Shown here: one piece after another, positions 36,041-63,364 of the stretch | How positions within the stretch are numbered: position 1 is the stretch's first letter | Layout: every line of letters starts with the position of its first letter | Source: Paramacrobiotus metropolitanus | Taxonomy: Eukaryota; Tardigrada; Eutardigrada; Parachela; Macrobiotidae | Reading direction: 5' to 3' | DNA length: 64,000 bases | NCBI RefSeq assembly: GCF_019649055.1 | Contig: NW_026570282.1 | Location: forward strand, 496,001-560,000 | Program-made: the position numbers and the translations under genes | The notes under the pieces: model-generated | The model's database searches: none | The model's input: only the letters and a program-made list of their open reading frames with translations | What the model was told of the DNA's origin: nothing

Positions 36041-41111
<5,071 letters not shown>

Positions 41112-42082: not shown

Positions 42083-45585
<3,503 letters not shown>

Positions 45586-46537
45586 GGTAGGTTCATGTTG
45601 CACTTCACATAAGTGCCGAAGGTGTCGATTGTGCAAGACAGCCGGCGCTGGTGATAATAAAAGGTTTTTCCACTCCGAACCATTTTCCAAAAGTTCGATA
45701 GTTTGTACCATATAATACGTTGAGGGTGCTGGTTATAGCGATCTTTTAAGTATCTGCCTGCCGAATCAGCTTAGCGATGATCCATCGTAAAACTAATGGT
45801 GAATGAAAGATGCCATGAACACATGCGCCCTTGCCTTTCTGCTTGAGAGCCGTTGCGCGGAATATTGATCCTAAAATTTGGTAAATTTCTGCAGGCTGTC
45901 CGCGACTGTAACCATTTTTGCCATCCATGCTCACATTTTCTAGGTAGTTAGCAAATAGAACCATAAACCAAGAAGTACCATAAACTTTTAGCCAATATTT
46001 CGCGTGACTGCGTGAGTTTCCTTCTAGAATTGTATTAAGACGCGTGAAAATCACGTATTTGCTGTACTTATTACGTATGTCCAGTTGTCGATCTTATACA
46101 AATTGTTTGCTCGAGGAGAGCAGTAGATACTTTTTCATAAAAATATACATTTTATCCACAAGCTGTAGGACTACAACTTTGTGAATTTGATTTATAGGTA
46201 GATTTATAGGTTTCTTAGGGTTAACTGGTGGTCTGGTACTTATTAAATATGCATTTAGCCGCTTCAGTGTATGTTTCAGGTTTCCTGTAGCGGTTAAGGT
46301 GGTTGCGCTTACTCTGTATATTCCTTATATAAATTTGGGTATATTAGTGAATGTCATCGTAATTCTGCAAGAAAATAAGCTCAGCTTGGCTGTACAAGTT
46401 CATCACGGCATGGCAGTTGATTCGTCAGGACATACCGTTGCAGTTTTACATGTAATGCAGTTTTTGTTAGAGCTGGTTGGCGCAATATCTGATGTGCTGT
46501 AATTATTGGCTTGGACATATACCGTATATTATCCAAG

Positions 46538-51666: not shown

Positions 51667-53201
51667 TCACCTTAAACCGATCCATTCTGGAACCCAATAT
51701 TCGGACAAATTCGTCATCGATGCAAGGACCGAGCCGGGTCGGGGCCAGTCCGCAAAGTAAATAACATTTGATGCATTGGAAAGGTATCCGGCAAAAAAAG
51801 AAAATGTTCCATAGCTCAGAATCAAATGATTGGACCTACTCAGAATGTTCAGATCAACTTCAGCACTTTCATTCACCACTTCCATTAGTCGAAAAGGAAG
51901 GTTTTCCTTCGCCCATTCAGGATCGTTGGTGCAAACAAGATAAAATGGATCAACTATACCTTTCTCGAAAAGATATCGGTTGGCATTTTCATAAAATACT
52001 GCAGGAATTTCCACATGCCCAACTTTTAGATGGTATGAAGTCAAAACATCTCCGCGCCGAATATGAACTCCAACAACTGGTCTTGAACGGTTCTCATGCG
52101 AAGCCAGTTTCTACAACATCAATCGGACAAAAATAACACATGTCTACAAAATAAATGAATAAGCCAGATTTTAAGCAAATACAACAGATGTCATTGCAAA
52201 ATTCATCCAACACAGTCACCACAAGAAAACAGATACCGACACTATAAATACTGCTTTTCACTCTTCACTACTGGCATGAAAACTTCTTCTTACCTCTGAC
52301 ATTTCATTTAAAATGCGGGTTCGAACGGCATCAGCTCTATCCAGAACATCTTGTTTAAAACGAAACTGATGCCGAATAGCTTCACGATAATGCGGATGAA
52401 AATACTTCCAAGACTGCAGATACCCCCATACCGAAACATTTCTTATTGTTGTTTGCGAAAACAAGTTTTCGGACCGTGAGTCGTAAAAGCAGCATTCCTC
52501 CATACCAAACACCAGGTTTTTGCAGTCACTAAGATCAAATTGTCCGACAACACTGGTACTAACATGCATAATATCGTGTAGGGTATTGCGAGAAATTGCC
52601 AGACGGAGATCGTTTCTGGCGGCGATTCCCCATAACGACGCGTATATAAACAGTTTGTTTCCCAGTCCGATTCCGGGATGAAAATTATGGGAAATATAAA
52701 ACCCTTCAGTGGATGAATGCACCAAAGAATAGTCGGCTGCCGCTGGCATGCCTTCTCTAGAAAACAACAACCAAACTACATTATTAATTTACGAGAATTA
52801 CTGATCTACAGTTATTGTTAGTTAAGTACTATTAAGCACATAATTTTACAGAGAGTTAGGCATATCAGAGATGAACATGTACGATGCACTAAATACCTTT
52901 AACCCCGTTATTCTGTATTACAATATTAAACCACTAGAGCCGTAACTGCGAAACAAATTTTACCTCTAACGACTTCACGAGTAAGTTTTGGTCATTTCCA
53001 TATATAACTTAACTAGGTGCATGGGAATACAGAGTACATGCACGTATTATACTTCAATTTCTACCGATGTACTCACGCAAAATCCAGACATTTCCAGCGG
53101 TTGATATTCCATTCCCTCAATCGGATCACACGGTAAACAGCTTCCCAACTAATGAACGTAGCAAAATACAATATCAACAGAATCGCGACCAGCCAACCCA
53201 T
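51667..53201 (-). CDS. Galactoside alpha-1,2-fucosyltransferase (GT11), 343 residues
   Basis: The three minus-strand exons are 53077-53201, 52294-52756 and 51667-52110, phase-consistent (344 codons), close to the usual family length. It is a type II Golgi protein: a short N-terminus and one membrane anchor (MGWLVAILLILYFATFISW) precede the catalytic domain. GT11 motifs are present: GIGLGNKLFIYASLWGIA near the start of the domain and VGVHIRRGDV (HIRRGD at 212-217), which forms part of the GDP-fucose site. The later segment LILSYGTFSFFAGYL corresponds to the third conserved motif. It should transfer fucose from GDP-fucose to a terminal galactose of a glycan. The start was chosen because it gives the membrane anchor and joins exon 2 in phase. 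Confidence 0.92.
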
Positions 53202-55717: not shown

Positions 55718-58658
55718 TCAACGAAAAGCGTTCAACAAATCCAAAGAAGAACGTCGCTCACGAGTGGATCGAGATTTTGAGAAAATATTCCAAAACCGTA
55801 ATGTTTCATCGCCAGCTCCTGTCACAATTGACTCTCCATCAGGTGACATCGCCTATATCAATTCCAAAGATTATCGAAAAGCACCGCGAAAAAAATTCCT
55901 AACCTTTTATCGTTGCTTACCAAATACAGAACGCGATATGTATGACCAATCAATTTGGCGATCTGCGTTAGCGATGGATACTTCCACAGGAGGATTTGAT
56001 TCTGTGAGTAACCATGTGTGCTAACCAGCTCCGATGCATGCTTGGACCAGGCTAAATTACACACTTGTGATCCGGTATCTACCGCCTGAAGTGCCTGCCC
56101 CGTCAGCGTGTTCCAAAATCTTATGTACCGATCCGCAGTACCACCCCCGCTTGCCAGTAAACCATGATGATGCGGAGACCACGCGATGGCTTTGACAGCT
56201 GCTTGGTGATCAGTATAAGTCTGCACGGGCTGAGATTCAGTGCCAGCGTTATGGGCCCAGACAAGCAGCTTATTATCATTTCCACCGGATGCCAGGTACA
56301 TATGGTCCGGAGACCACTTCAGTCCACATACCTATTTAAAAAAAACCATGCATTTCACCTATGCCACACAAATGAGGATAGTTTCATTTTTTTCGAGAGC
56401 TTATTTGGTTCGAAGCCTAACATACTCTGATCCTAGCACCTGGGAAATACCCGTGCATCAATTACAACGTCCTAATGATAATAAATAACCAAATCAATAT
56501 CATGACCTGTTGTGTATTTATCTCTCGCAAAGCGAAAAAAACGATCAACGTGCGTCTTAAGCTAATCGCAACATTATCATGTACAGTATCGCGCAAAACT
56601 GATAAACTGCTGATCTACACAGATACGAGTAAGATATCTTACTACAAATTTGTATAACATACTTACTAACCTCTTGTTTATGGCCATTGAATTTACGTCT
56701 GGCAAACAAAGGAGGGGTTCGCATATCATTAAGCCATATTATCCGATCACGGCTCCCCGAAGCTAAAACGTCGCTATTCCAAGCCAGAGCACCTGCGAAA
56801 ACACCAAAATCACGCAAAAGCAAGCACAAAGGTTTCGATAACAATATCACTCCCTAGTCCCTATCGAACACAAGCAGTGTCTCAGCTTGTGAGCTAGTGC
56901 ACCAGAGTTTATAATTATACTTACTGCAGCTTCTTGTTAAGCCTACTTGAAACAGTGGACAGAACATACCAACTCGAGCCGTATGGGTGCTCAGACTAGA
57001 AGTTCGTTCTTGATGAACTGCATCCCAAATCTGAATTTGTCCACGATTCGTACCAACGGCAACCAGGTTTCCTCTTTCTGACCAACTGACAGAAGTTATC
57101 GTGTTGTTGTCATTATGAAAATCACAGAGCCGCGTAACCTGAAAAAAATGTTTGTACAAATGAACATGGCAAAAAAGTGTTACTTAACTGCATAAACGGC
57201 AAAGGCGTCAGTGATAATTAAAAAGCGAGACATACTGAGCTGTTGCTGGCACTCCATAAATACACAGAAGTCCCCAATCCAACCGCCAGCACATTGGAAT
57301 GGGACCAGTCGACAAGATTCAAATAGAAATCGTCTTGCAACTCAGGTGCATCCAGCACTTTGTACGGAACTTTAGGAATTTTTCTTCCGACCTGAAAAAC
57401 AATGCCTTGCGGATCTTAAGCAACAACCAGAGCAGAATTGTGGTCTCAAACCTTGCGAGGCTGTCTCAGCATCTGGCAACTTTTTTCACTCAAAGGAGAA
57501 AGAGAGAACGGTGACGTGCTTGCCAGCAGACGGTCCGACGGCTTCTTTGGCGAATACTACAATCAAAGTACGAAAATATTTAGTTATGCTCGTATATACT
57601 AGATACCAAAAATAAAGACATCGCACACACGTGTAAATTTATGATTATCAATATCTGTTCAATTTGCAAAAATGGAGCAACTCAAACCAAAACAGCCAAA
57701 TTTAAAATTACTGCCCAAACAGCAACTTGGCGCAATCTTCAATTCAGTAAACATCAGTATCCATCGAAGTTGCCGTGTTGCGCAATATTTATTATGTAAG
57801 CTAATAAGTAAGTAATTCAAAATCAATACCAGTGGAAGCACAAAATTTTGCAAAACCAGAACTGAAACTGCCGTAACCAGCTACCCCGTCGATCGCAACA
57901 TACCGTAAAAACATTTCTTTTGGAGCTTTTTGTCGGAGTCAACGGAGCGATGCCAATAGTCGAACTGGAGTGCAAAGACGAGCTGGAAGTGCTGACAGCG
58001 GAAATGCCATTTCCAGTATGCTGCAAGATTGCCCCTGAGCTCGGACAATTCTCTTGTCCGTAAGTATCATCCATAGCATCTGGCATATCTGCGCCCATAA
58101 TTTCATTACGCAGAAGACGCTGGTACAGCTGCTGGCTAGCACCAAAGCCATCTTTGGAATCGTCACGACTGGTGGATGCAGCGTTTGTGGAGATTCTGGT
58201 CTGTTCATCGTAACGACAAGTATAGGCTATTCGCCACCGCCGAGGTTCTCGCTGGGGTATATAGCGATCCGGAGATTTCACTGGACTTGTGAAAGCCTTC
58301 TTTCGACGAAATGTTGGCTGCAAAACAATCAACTCATAAAGTAGAAATTAAAAGTAAAGTTAATACAAAGTAACGCCGATGGCGACCAGTTACAGTCTGT
58401 CACCTAGCTTGAGCTGCAAACTCTCCGATTTGGTTAGCGCAGCAATAGTTACTTTCCACAGTCAGTCAACTAATTATTTGCAAAAAGTTACCATATCGGT
58501 TCGATAACCTAAAGTGGGAGATTTGTATATCGTTACTAGTATATCTGTGTAACTTTGTTAAAGCACTAATAATCAGCACGAACCGAACTTGGAGGGGTGA
58601 TCATTTCCATGTCCGCGGGTCGTTCACTTTCCTGGTTATTTGAAATAGCGTCATCCAT
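55718..58658 (-). CDS. FZR1: Cdh1/fizzy-related APC/C activator, 528 residues
   Basis: The eight minus-strand exons are 58584-58658, 57904-58317, 57452-57556, 57236-57391, 56970-57138, 56671-56792, 55921-56331 and 55718-55852, phase-consistent (529 codons). This is the WD40 substrate adaptor that activates the anaphase-promoting complex in late mitosis and G1. The N-terminus carries the C-box (DRYIP at 42-46), then the FZR-specific [12 protein letters not shown] and [20 protein letters not shown]. The seven-bladed WD40 propeller runs from about residue 216 ([20 protein letters not shown]) through [11 protein letters not shown] and [18 protein letters not shown] to [13 protein letters not shown]. 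The protein ends LLNAFR, so the usual C-terminal Ile-Arg tail is Phe-Arg. The first exon, with a GTTCGT donor, is the least certain part. Confidence 0.94.
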
Positions 58659-59416
58659 GACGTTGGTCAAAATACCCACATCGACGAATCTCTTAAATTA
58701 GCTTCACAGGATAATTGTAAACACAAACTATAACTTTAAAAAATTAACGAATATTAATCAAACTAACGTGGAGCCAAAAAACGAAAAAACGGAGAACGAG
58801 TCAACGACATGTTGTGGACAGAAATGATTTTCCGTTTTTCTCTGGCTTGCTTTCCCTGAAGCAGGCTTTAGTGGTAATTCTAACGTAACTGCCACCTGTG
58901 TTGTATTCATAAGTATACAGGTCTATCATCACATCCGCCTCGTTTTTTTACGATGTTTAAAAAACTACCAGGTTAATTGCAGCATTCGGTAGAAAGTCCC
59001 AGTATGATACGGAATCAAAACATTTACTGAACTTGCAAAAATTTGTTTGTACTTTGTACTTCACCGCGAACGGTTTATATGTAGGGCAATAAAAAGTAAA
59101 AAATTATTGATCATCATGATCATGAGAAATGGTTCTAACTTTCATTCCGAATCGGTTTTGGTTACTGTACCATTTCTTTAACTGTTAATTTTGAATTTAA
59201 ATGCCGTAATACGTGATTAAAAAAGATTTATTCGGTTTCTCTTGAAAATTAGTGATTTCGAAGTCGCATGCAGAAGGCCAGCGTTCGCGATCAGCTGGCT
59301 TCCCTGACAAGCTGGCATTGGAGCAGGTTCTGCACTTGGTGGCGGTGTCGTTTGGAGCTTAATTCGTTGCAGTTTGCTCTAAGTTTTGTTCCATCTAGAC
59401 CAGTCCTGGATCCACT
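58659..59416. other. Divergent promoter region of FZR and the RRM-RING gene
   Basis: About 760 bases separate the two start codons. A GA-biased plus-strand stretch near 59230-59360 could be an untranslated or additional first exon of the RRM-RING gene (an acceptor-like site lies just before 59400). Nothing else is seen. Confidence 0.4.
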
Positions 59417-62395
59417 ATGCAATATCACTGTCGAGACTGCCAAAAAGATTTCGGTGCAACGCTTGTGGTTGGTGCTCTTTAAATTAACATGTTGTGACTG
59501 TTGTCTCTTTTGGGCTCTCTCGGATCCCTTGTTAGTGGAAGGTTTTTAGTGGATAATTAAATAAACGATTTTGTAGCCAGAAGTTTACGATTTAAATGAC
59601 TGTTTTCAGGTTTAATGAGAATTTTATGTTGTTCAGGATGGGAGCTGCCCGGACTGCTACAGCTCTGACGCTGTCGAACAACGAACATCGGTTCAAGAGG
59701 GTCAGTCCATTTCAGCCTGTTGATACTTTCACAGTGCAAACTCTGCAACACAAAATTTTAGTATTTGTTTTGCGGCAATATTTTATGCTCGCATGGCTTT
59801 TCGTAGGGGTTCCAATGCCGAAGGAGCCTGTAAGCGCACCCGCTGCGACCGGTTCGAGATTTCTGGTAAATGTCGGCAATGTGCATGCAGTAGGAGAACT
59901 ATTGTAGCTGAATGCTTTATCGCTTGATATTTCAGGCTGCTATTTCCAGCCAAACGGGAAATGCATTGCAGCCGGTGATCAACCCATTGGCCTCTCCCAT
60001 GGTTGCTGCACCGGCTCCGCCCGTGCATAATGGCCTGCACGCTGCAGGAAATCATTCTGCGCCAGATCTTCCAAAAATTGTCAGTGAAACGTTTTTTATG
60101 GTATTAGTGCAGTTTTCCAGGTCAGTGTTGTTAGGTTCCGAAGTATGCAATGCCAAAACTTCGCTCGACCCAGAGCACTACGTCGGTGCCTGTCAATACA
60201 TCATTGCCTGTTCCATCGGGATCGCAGATTCTTCCTCAAACTTTTGTCGGTAATCGTTATACTGCTGATGGAGCTTCTTCTGCCACAGTGAGCCAGAATC
60301 CCAAGTTGGTGTTTGCTCGAGCTTTGGCGAAACCGCTTTTGCAGGCGCCAGGTATGGTTTCTGTATGCGTGTATCTGCTCGATAACGACCATTAATTTTT
60401 CTGGAGATCGAAATTTGGCCGTCTGAATCGCCTGGGTTCGCAGACTATTTGTTGCATTTTCACTATAGGGAAAGCAAACCCTTTTGCTCAGCTATTTACT
60501 GCCGTCGACCATTTGAGCCCGGAAGTTATGATTTGTTTGGATGCTTGCTCCGACCCTGTGCTCCTCAATGCACATGCAAATCTGATGGTAGGAAGTGGAA
60601 CAGAAGTTTCTGGTACGAAACAGGAAGGGTTATTTTGTTTATTACTTTGTAGCAAAATACGATCGAAATCATGGATTCCATAAAGTTGCGGCTGGAAGAA
60701 AGGTAATTTGTAGTGCATCATACGGTCCTTGTATTGTGACATAATATTACTGGTACTACACCCATAGTGTGTTTAGTGTTATTATGATTGTGGTTATAAA
60801 TTTAACTTTTGCCTTTTTCGTACTCCTGAGCATTTATCTTCGTATTAACAGTATTTTGACGCCTTTTTGCGTATGAATAGGCTTAAAGCAGTGCTCAAAA
60901 CGGACATGAGTTTGTACGAAGCTGCTCACGGAAGAAAGCGGTCAGATTCTGGTGGCAGTTCGGTTTCGAGCAATCCTGTGACGGTTCACAGCAGTCGCCC
61001 TAAACGCATTATCAGGTGCATACATACATATGTTTGAAATCTCCACTCTGCCGCACTCATAAGCGTGTTTTTAAAGTTGACGCAGAAATAAACGTTTTGT
61101 TATTTTTCAGCACCATTGTGGCAAAAAAACTTCCTTCGAATATTACGGAAGCCGATTTGTTTGCGTATTTCAAAGATTTTTGTAAAGAGCGTTCTGAAAT
61201 TCAGAATATTAACATCGCCAGAAATCCTCGAACCAGGGAGTGTAAAGGGTTTGCTTATGTCAAGTTAGCACGCACAGAGATCGTTCAGGAAATTTGCCGG
61301 AGGACAAGGCATAAAATCACAGTTGGGCAGTTTAATGGAGTCCAACACGAGATCCTGGTGGAACCATTCGACGAGGTTAGTGCAGCGTTTTCCCATTTTT
61401 AAGCCACGCTGTTAGCGCTACTTCGTATGCTGAGCACTCACTTCAGTGGAATATTTTATTCCAGCATTACTGAAATTTGTGCTGTTGTTTTCTGTTTATT
61501 TCTGTTTTCTTTTTCAGCTCGACCAGTATAAACGAAGATTGAAATATACAATTTTTATTGGTGGCGTGTCATCGTTCATGAGTGAAGAAGATTTTGTACG
61601 CATTATGACAGAAAAGTATGGAAAAGTAAGTAGATCGAACGGTCCCGGTATTATTGTGCAGTGGTTAGCAGTAAATAATGATCATTGTTTCAGATTGAGG
61701 ACATTTACTATCATTCTAATGACATGAATCCTGGAACCGAAAATGGTTATGTAAAGCTGACATTCGCTGATCCTGAAATAAATAAAAAGCTGTTGGAAAA
61801 TGGTACAATCGAAATTAACCGCAGAAAGGTACATAATACCGTAACGGTGGGGAATAAACATGCGTACAAGTATTGTCGAAGTTTGGACAACAAAAAATTT
61901 ACTTGCATGTTAGAGTGCCGATTTTTGCACGTGTCTTACTGTTTGAGATTTTCTGTTCTTGCAGTTGCACTGTAAGCCTTGTGAAGATTCCCGGAAACAC
62001 GCAGAAAATATGAAGAAAGAGCGTGGAGAAATCAACAAAAATGATAAAAAAATTGATAACGATAAGGAAAACAGCGAAGGCAAAAAGAAGGAGAAGAAAC
62101 CTGACGAAGATGATAGTAAAGGAAAATGCTGTGTATGTAATGTTTTTGTTTTCATCGGTTATCCATTCTTGTTCTAGGATTTTTTTTTTACTAAAGCTCT
62201 TTTTAACTACCATTATCTAATATATATCTGAACCCTCGTGTGATTATATAGGTCTGTTTGGACGAAGACGTTTGCATGCTTTTCGTACCCTGCAATCACC
62301 TTTGCGTCTGCGAGGAATGCTCAAAAATGATGGATGATTGTCCATACTGCCGTGGTCGGATTACCAAGAAAAGCAAAGTCTTTATTCCTAACTGA
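59417..62395 (+). CDS. Zinc-ribbon, coiled-coil, two-RRM, C-terminal RING protein, about 552 residues
   Basis: The thirteen exons are 59417-59467, 59637-59700, 59807-59865, 59936-60079, 60135-60351, 60469-60587, 60653-60702, 60881-61015, 61111-61375, 61518-61625, 61694-61828, 61965-62132 and 62252-62395. All phases fit (553 codons). The order is: a C4 zinc ribbon (YHCRDC then GSCPDC, residues 3-24), a Pro/Ser/Ala-rich linker, a short helix (IEIMDSIKLRLEERLKAVL, near 221), RRM1 (IVAKKLP and KGFAYVKL, about 281-365), RRM2 (YTIFIGGVSS and NGYVKLTF, about 375-450), a Lys-rich linker, and a C3HC4 RING (CCVCLDEDVCMLFVPCNHLCVCEEC then CPYC, 503-545). It is probably an RNA-binding ubiquitin ligase. 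I know no family with this order. The start and the first two splice sites are the least certain; the RRM and RING exons are solid. Confidence 0.82.
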
Positions 62396-62964: not shown

Positions 62965-63024
62965 TACCAGAACCGTTGTCTGGTATACTCGTATACTACG
63001 TACTACCAGACAACGGTTCTGGTA
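62965..63024. repeat. 21-bp perfect inverted repeat
   Basis: Arms 62965-62985 and 63004-63024 are exact reverse complements (TACCAGAACCGTTGTCTGGT plus one base) around an 18-base centre made of further short palindromic bits (GTATAC, TACGTA). Confidence 0.93.
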
Positions 63025-63280: not shown

Positions 63281-63364
63281 ACTCGTTCCCTAAATTTTGA
63301 TAAAGAATTACCATGTAGGAACGCTCCTACATGAGAATTCTTTATCAACATTTAGGGAACGAGT
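63281..63364. repeat. 84-base near-perfect hairpin (pre-miRNA-like or foldback)
   Basis: The outer stem is 29 bp (63281-63309 with 63336-63364) with one mismatch. A three-base internal loop follows, then an inner perfect 8-bp stem ending in a four-base loop. The overall size matches an animal pre-miRNA hairpin, but the stem is more perfect than most, so a small foldback element is equally likely. Confidence 0.85.

Follow-up and report, generated by a model that had tools for sequence, protein, structure and literature searches.

The window, the whole stretch of 64,000 nucleotides that was analysed, carries at 59417-62395 (+) a set of 13 predicted exons that join in frame into a 1656-base reading frame, encoding 551 residues plus the stop (Table 1). 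All 12 introns are bounded by GT and AG, with phases agreeing at each junction and sizes from 55 to 178 bases. The start codon is the ATG at 59417, which is preceded in frame by a stop at 59396. A sequence-only reading of this DNA had proposed the same 13 in-frame exons, and our rebuilt model agrees with it. Its total of 552 holds if the stop is counted, whereas the residues themselves number 551 with the first-exon donor used here; an alternative donor at 59468 would add one Val. When the predicted protein was compared with the 64,000-nt window by tblastn, matches were obtained inside the locus alone.

Divergent to this RRM-RING gene, and ~1 kb upstream of it if the neighbour's 5' end is near 58350, lies a Fizzy/Cdc20-type WD40 gene (APC/C activator) at 55858-58350 (-), with a WD40_CDC20-Fz match of 214.4 bits at 55861-56331. 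The position of that 5' end was read by eye from the list of open reading frames, and the reading frame at 57826-58347 is without a Pfam match. Carboxylesterase/cholinesterase-like genes occur on opposite strands at 38660-39313 (+) and 43327-44217 (-), with COesterase matches of 237.4 and 268.3 bits, respectively, and each is adjoined by a further esterase-like reading frame, identified by eye only (39453-39986 (+) and 45238-45732 (-)). A gene of Glycosyl transferase family 11 (alpha-1,2-fucosyltransferase-like) was found at 51667-52110 (-; 63 bits); the reading frame at 52261-52788, without a Pfam match at 0.001, resembles the beginning of that gene. Two inverted repeats lie downstream of the RRM-RING gene, one at 62965-63024 with perfect 21-base arms 18 apart and one at 63281-63364 with 40-base arms, 93% complementary and 4 apart; both are possibly remnants of mobile elements. 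We read the neighbouring genes as those of an animal. Searches of the window for tRNA genes found none, and Rfam gave no match at the gathering score.

Exon structure and the N-terminal region

RRM1 lies wholly within exon 9, and the exon 8/9 junction is a split codon just ahead of it. The RRM2 match obtained when the pieces were scanned singly (residues 379-450) crosses the exon 10/11 junction and reaches two residues past 11/12, and the RING match (residues 500-543) lies over the 12/13 junction, C503 being encoded by exon 12 and C506 by exon 13. Because RRM2 crosses two splice junctions and the RING a third, the two domains belong to one polypeptide. These domains over splice junctions, together with scores well above the cut-offs, rule out a chance assembly of the RRM-RING part. 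Judged by these matches exons 9-13 are firm, and the earlier claim that RNA-binding and RING modules share one protein, with the RRMs ahead of the RING, is well supported. Exons 6-8, in which a putative helix crosses the 6/7 and 7/8 junctions, are likely part of the gene. For the candidate exons 1-5, the evidence consists of the reading frame, the splice sites and the composition.

Table 1. Exons of the predicted RRM-RING gene, in window coordinates
Exon	Coordinates	Strand	Content
1	59417..59464	+	Residues 1-16; start codon, first half of putative ribbon (C5, C8); weakest part
2	59637..59700	+	Second half of putative ribbon (C20, C23); sub-threshold Zn_ribbon_6
3	59807..59865	+	Pro/Ala/Ser-rich linker
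4	59936..60079	+	Pro/Ala/Ser-rich linker
5	60135..60351	+	Linker; exon 5/6 junction spanned by neither domain nor helix
6	60469..60587	+	Putative helical segment begins
7	60653..60702	+	Central part of the putative short coiled coil, whose residues 210-237 begin in exon 6 and end in exon 8
8	60881..61015	+	Putative helix ends; basic Ser-rich linker
9	61111..61375	+	RRM1; RNP1 KGFAYVKL at 61244-61267; RRM_1 29.4 bits when scanned singly
10	61518..61625	+	First half of RRM2; RNP2 IFIGGV
11	61694..61828	+	Second half of RRM2; degenerate RNP1 NGYVKLTF
12	61965..62132	+	End of RRM2 match (2 residues); linker rich in Lys and Glu; C503 (62127-62129), the first Cys of the RING
13	62252..62395	+	RING from residue 505, linchpin R538 (62351-62353), tail F548 (62381-62383), stop

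Coding potential was assessed with a codon score trained on ten open reading frame stretches of the window (1986 codons; the stretches are not in every case confirmed as genes). Per codon, the joined exons 1-5 scored +0.046, exons 6-8 +0.009 and exons 9-13 -0.034. For reference, 333 frames scored in overlapping stretches taken to be non-coding had a mean of -0.130, a 95th percentile of -0.044 and a maximum of 0.009. The score parts coding from non-coding DNA weakly, as the confident exons 9-13 barely exceed the 95th percentile. Single exons are too short for it: exon 1, with 16 codons, scored -0.266 and the firm exon 13 scored -0.190. The G+C content of exons 2-5 is higher (0.51-0.61), which may inflate the score of exons 1-5.

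At the N terminus the cysteines follow a C4 pattern, C5-x2-C8-x11-C20-x2-C23, as the sequence-only reading had noticed. Every Pfam match to this part fell below its cut-off, namely Zn_ribbon_6 as the best (E 0.0064, 16.9 bits against 25) and seven others listed. Solved sequences in the PDB gave eight listed matches to the N-terminal piece, all at E 0.2 or worse, four of them PRT1 ligase chains at chance level (E 0.23-0.28). Taking CxxC, 8 to 16 residues and CxxC as the ribbon criterion, we asked how often a spliced ribbon follows an ATG: dinucleotide shuffling of this 411-base stretch produced one in 21 of 2000 cases (about 1%), and tiling both strands of the window gave one in 5 of 622 tiles, a count that includes tiles over the locus itself. 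A zinc ribbon is thus suggested by the sequence and not established. The earlier reading had also likened the ribbon to that of some RING ligases. A Pfam family for the RNF115/RNF126 ribbon exists, as does a solved RNF126-type chain; the Pfam listing, which ran to E 10, did not include the family, nor did the PDB listing for the N-terminal piece include the chain. Nothing links the ribbon to RNF115/RNF126, and that likeness is not borne out.

These observations bear on whether the locus holds two genes, in which case exons 1-5 would form a separate upstream gene or be partly mispredicted, and translation of the ligase would begin at an internal Met no earlier than exon 6, yielding an RRM-RRM-RING protein without a ribbon. 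Such a division, which we consider unlikely, would account for the junction between exons 5 and 6 that no domain spans, for the sub-threshold ribbon with its rate of chance occurrence, and for the negative score of exon 1. It is harder to reconcile with phases that match at all junctions, with an exon 5-6 intron of 117 bases, ordinary here, whose + strand has neither AATAAA nor ATTAAA, and with a joined score of exons 1-5 above the non-coding maximum, to whatever extent G+C raises it.

Between the linkers lies the putative helical segment (residues 163-257), for which a coiled coil had been claimed. A single 28-residue heptad stretch was found (residues 210-237), amounting to about four heptads at best by our own simple score. 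When residues 178-262 were shuffled 1000 times, 25 of the shuffled sequences reached this score; the coiled coil is weak. Comparison of the segment with solved structures yielded two chance matches (E 1.3 and 1.4).

Tandem RRMs and the C-terminal RING

Pfam RRM_1 matched two stretches of the protein, with 47.1 bits for the whole protein and, when the pieces were scanned singly, 29.4 bits for RRM1 and 27.1 bits for RRM2, against a cut-off of 20.7. This domain search agrees with the two RRMs claimed before. The best solved match to the RRM region was hnRNP A1 (E about 1e-7, approximately residues 309-437), a span that runs from the middle of RRM1 through the greater part of RRM2. In NCBIfam only sub-cut-off matches were found, the best being TIGR01622 SF-CC1 (40.5 bits against 231.65). 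A prediction by AlphaFold of RRM1 alone, made with no alignment, lacked the first strand; the order of helices and strands was otherwise compatible with an RRM, at a low mean pLDDT of 46.

The RNP motifs had been described as clear, which proved true of two of them. RNP1 of RRM1 (residues 324-331) is strong, near consensus and aligned with RGFGFVTY of hnRNP A1, and RNP2 of RRM2 is likewise strong and aligned with IFVGGI. The RNP2 consensus usually has an aromatic residue, but RNP2 of RRM1, IVAKKL, is without one. RNP1 of RRM2 is degenerate: aligned to RGFAFVTF of hnRNP A1, it keeps the first aromatic and loses the second, with Lys at the position of the central Phe. With one degenerate motif in each domain, it is conceivable from the sequence that one or both RRMs could bind protein and not RNA. 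If both were protein-binding modules, the product would be an ordinary RING ligase that recognises its substrates through contacts with protein and makes no use of RNA. A precedent of a kind exists in DTX3L, whose RRM-like D1 is described as modelled as a dimerisation domain (PMC10955461). However, the two well-kept motifs, together with best solved matches that are RNA-binding hnRNP tandem RRMs, speak for RNA, and we regard protein-only RRMs as rather improbable.

The C terminus matches zf-C3HC4_3 at 44.1 bits (cut-off 27) and has all eight zinc ligands (C503, C506, C518, H520, C524, C527, C534 and C537), which upholds the canonical C-terminal C3HC4 RING of the earlier reading. Among the 36 distinct solved sequences that matched the RING at E up to 1, the closest were BIRC2 (cIAP1; E 6.7e-12) and XIAP (E 1.6e-11); MEX3C is distant (E 4.5e-4), in an alignment that ends before the tail Phe. 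The linchpin position is occupied by Arg538, as in the cIAP1 alignment, and K546 and F548 align to the Arg and Phe of the cIAP1 tail (Arg614 and Phe616 in PMC6349121). In cIAP1 these two tail residues are described as touching the donor ubiquitin in trans, from the partner subunit, and replacement of Phe616 by His as leaving discharge defective (PMC6349121). In XIAP the linchpin is Tyr485, and Arg at that position is described as raising activity (PMC12326332). Judged by alignment, the E2/ubiquitin contact residues R538 and F548 are kept. Given the zinc ligands, Arg538 and the aligned K546/F548, we therefore predict an active, paired RING.

Comparison with known ligases

Beyond the RING, the CNOT4 (Not4) family offers a natural comparison: CNOT4 has an N-terminal RING, and we take the human protein O95628 to be CNOT4. 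A survey of human RRM proteins by Pfam domain shows eight isoforms of O95628, three with zf-C3HC4_3 followed by RRM_5 and five with RRM_5 only (PMC4367854). The RING of Not4 is described as accompanied by a single RRM and by a C3H1 finger, a set of domains that no other eukaryotic E3 is said to combine (PMC5970261), and in a table of human E3s, stated to be non-exhaustive, the RRM appears in CNOT4 only (PMC2198940). A divergent CNOT4 orthologue, which would share the union of RING and RRM in one E3 and the pairing of zf-C3HC4_3 with an RRM in those isoforms, is very improbable here, as neither the order of the domains nor the resemblance of the RING fits: the RING is last and not first, there are two RRMs and not one, C3H1 is absent from the Pfam matches listed, and the RING is nearest to those of IAPs, with CNOT4 not among the 36 solved sequences.

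The sequence-only reading had held that known proteins with RRM and RING place the RING first, and that the reverse order could not be placed in any family. The first statement fits CNOT4 and is incomplete, as DTX3L is described with a modelled, N-terminal RRM-like D1 ahead of its C-terminal RING (PMC10955461); unlike our protein, DTX3L also has KH-like repeats, and a DTC domain follows its RING. As to the second, RRM with RING is indeed uncommon, but MEX3, with two KH domains and then a C-terminal RING, had been overlooked. MEX3 proteins share with this locus paired RNA-binding domains followed by a C-terminal C3HC4 RING, and the same logic is proposed for both; they differ in that the domains are KH there and RRMs here, and to our knowledge they have no N-terminal ribbon. 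In MEX3C, two KH domains are reported to bind the 3' UTR of the target, and the C-terminal RING, dimeric there as a homodimer in solution, is needed for decay of the target mRNA (PMC6194269); ubiquitination of CNOT7 by MEX3C without degradation has also been described (PMC4617606). No KH family and no BIR domain were among the Pfam matches listed for our protein at E up to 10.

The remaining likenesses are to parts of other proteins. IAPs have BIR domains, and we know of no IAP with an RRM; hnRNP A/B proteins have a Gly-rich tail and are not known to carry a RING. The RINGs of IAPs (cIAP1, XIAP, BIRC7) are the closest by sequence, tail Phe included; cIAP1 shares the linchpin Arg in its alignment, whereas XIAP has Tyr there (PMC12326332); BIR domains are described in cIAP1 (PMC6349121). 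Among solved sequences, the tandem RRMs of hnRNP A/B match the RRM region best, although in the alignment their RNP motifs are better. At least 26 human RING-type RNA-binding ligases are described, in five families defined by RNA-binding domain that include CCCH, KH and RRM (PMC5707401). Of the features of such ligases (RBULs), those seen in our sequence are a RING with intact zinc ligands and RRM_1 twice above cut-off. On these domain matches, the RRM-RRM-RING architecture is real and uncommon; given MEX3, its order is not unprecedented, and it is best filed among the RNA-binding RING ligases and not as a new kind.

Pattern searches for relatives in viral and prokaryote contigs, collections not expected to contain animal genes, gave 8 and 26 matches, of which none was confirmed. 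In open-licence literature, the papers matching phrases for RRM together with RING all concerned Not4 or CCR4-NOT, and no protein with tandem RRMs and a C-terminal RING was found among the matches listed, tardigrade and nematode literature included. The main text of a survey of Drosophila RING proteins contains neither 'RRM' nor 'RNA recognition' (PMC3166285). Relatives in other invertebrates may well exist in databases, and novelty is unproven.

Proposed function

We read the locus as a single gene encoding an RNA-binding RING ubiquitin ligase with tandem RRMs and an IAP-type C-terminal RING, to which, on the sequence, we give a probability of roughly 0.7. The best reading of the product is an active, probably dimeric ligase in which RNA binding probably selects the proteins that receive ubiquitin. 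The analysis establishes a gene structure at the level of a sequence model, the domains it encodes and the catalytic residues that are kept; from these we infer that the protein binds RNA, pairs and acts as a ligase, as well as its substrates and their fate, and the term 'RNA-guided', used before, likewise interprets sequence. The two hnRNP-type RRMs would set the protein on single-stranded RNA, and the RING would recruit an E2 charged with ubiquitin, probably a UbcH5-type enzyme. Arg538 as linchpin would keep E2-ubiquitin closed, while Phe548 from the tail of the partner subunit would pack against the donor ubiquitin in the paired RING. The short helix ahead of the RRMs may aid pairing, and the N-terminal ribbon, if real, could be a docking site. 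Proteins on the same RNA would then be ubiquitinated, as CNOT7 is by MEX3C, and mRNA decay or translation would be altered.

RRM is very common among RNA-binding domains and RING among ligase domains. More tentatively, and with doubt outweighing confidence, the protein might belong to a lineage-restricted, undescribed ligase family in which an hnRNP-type tandem RRM was fused to an IAP-type dimeric RING, with a zinc ribbon of its own, so that the MEX3 plan was independently reinvented; the partner subunits could bind a bipartite RNA, with the paired RING switched on only when assembled on the transcript. A tandem-RRM ligase with a terminal RING would be a second origin of the MEX3 arrangement, and the RRM-RRM-RING order with a trans-acting tail residue would offer a natural case in which to ask whether the pairing and activity of a RING can be set by RNA.
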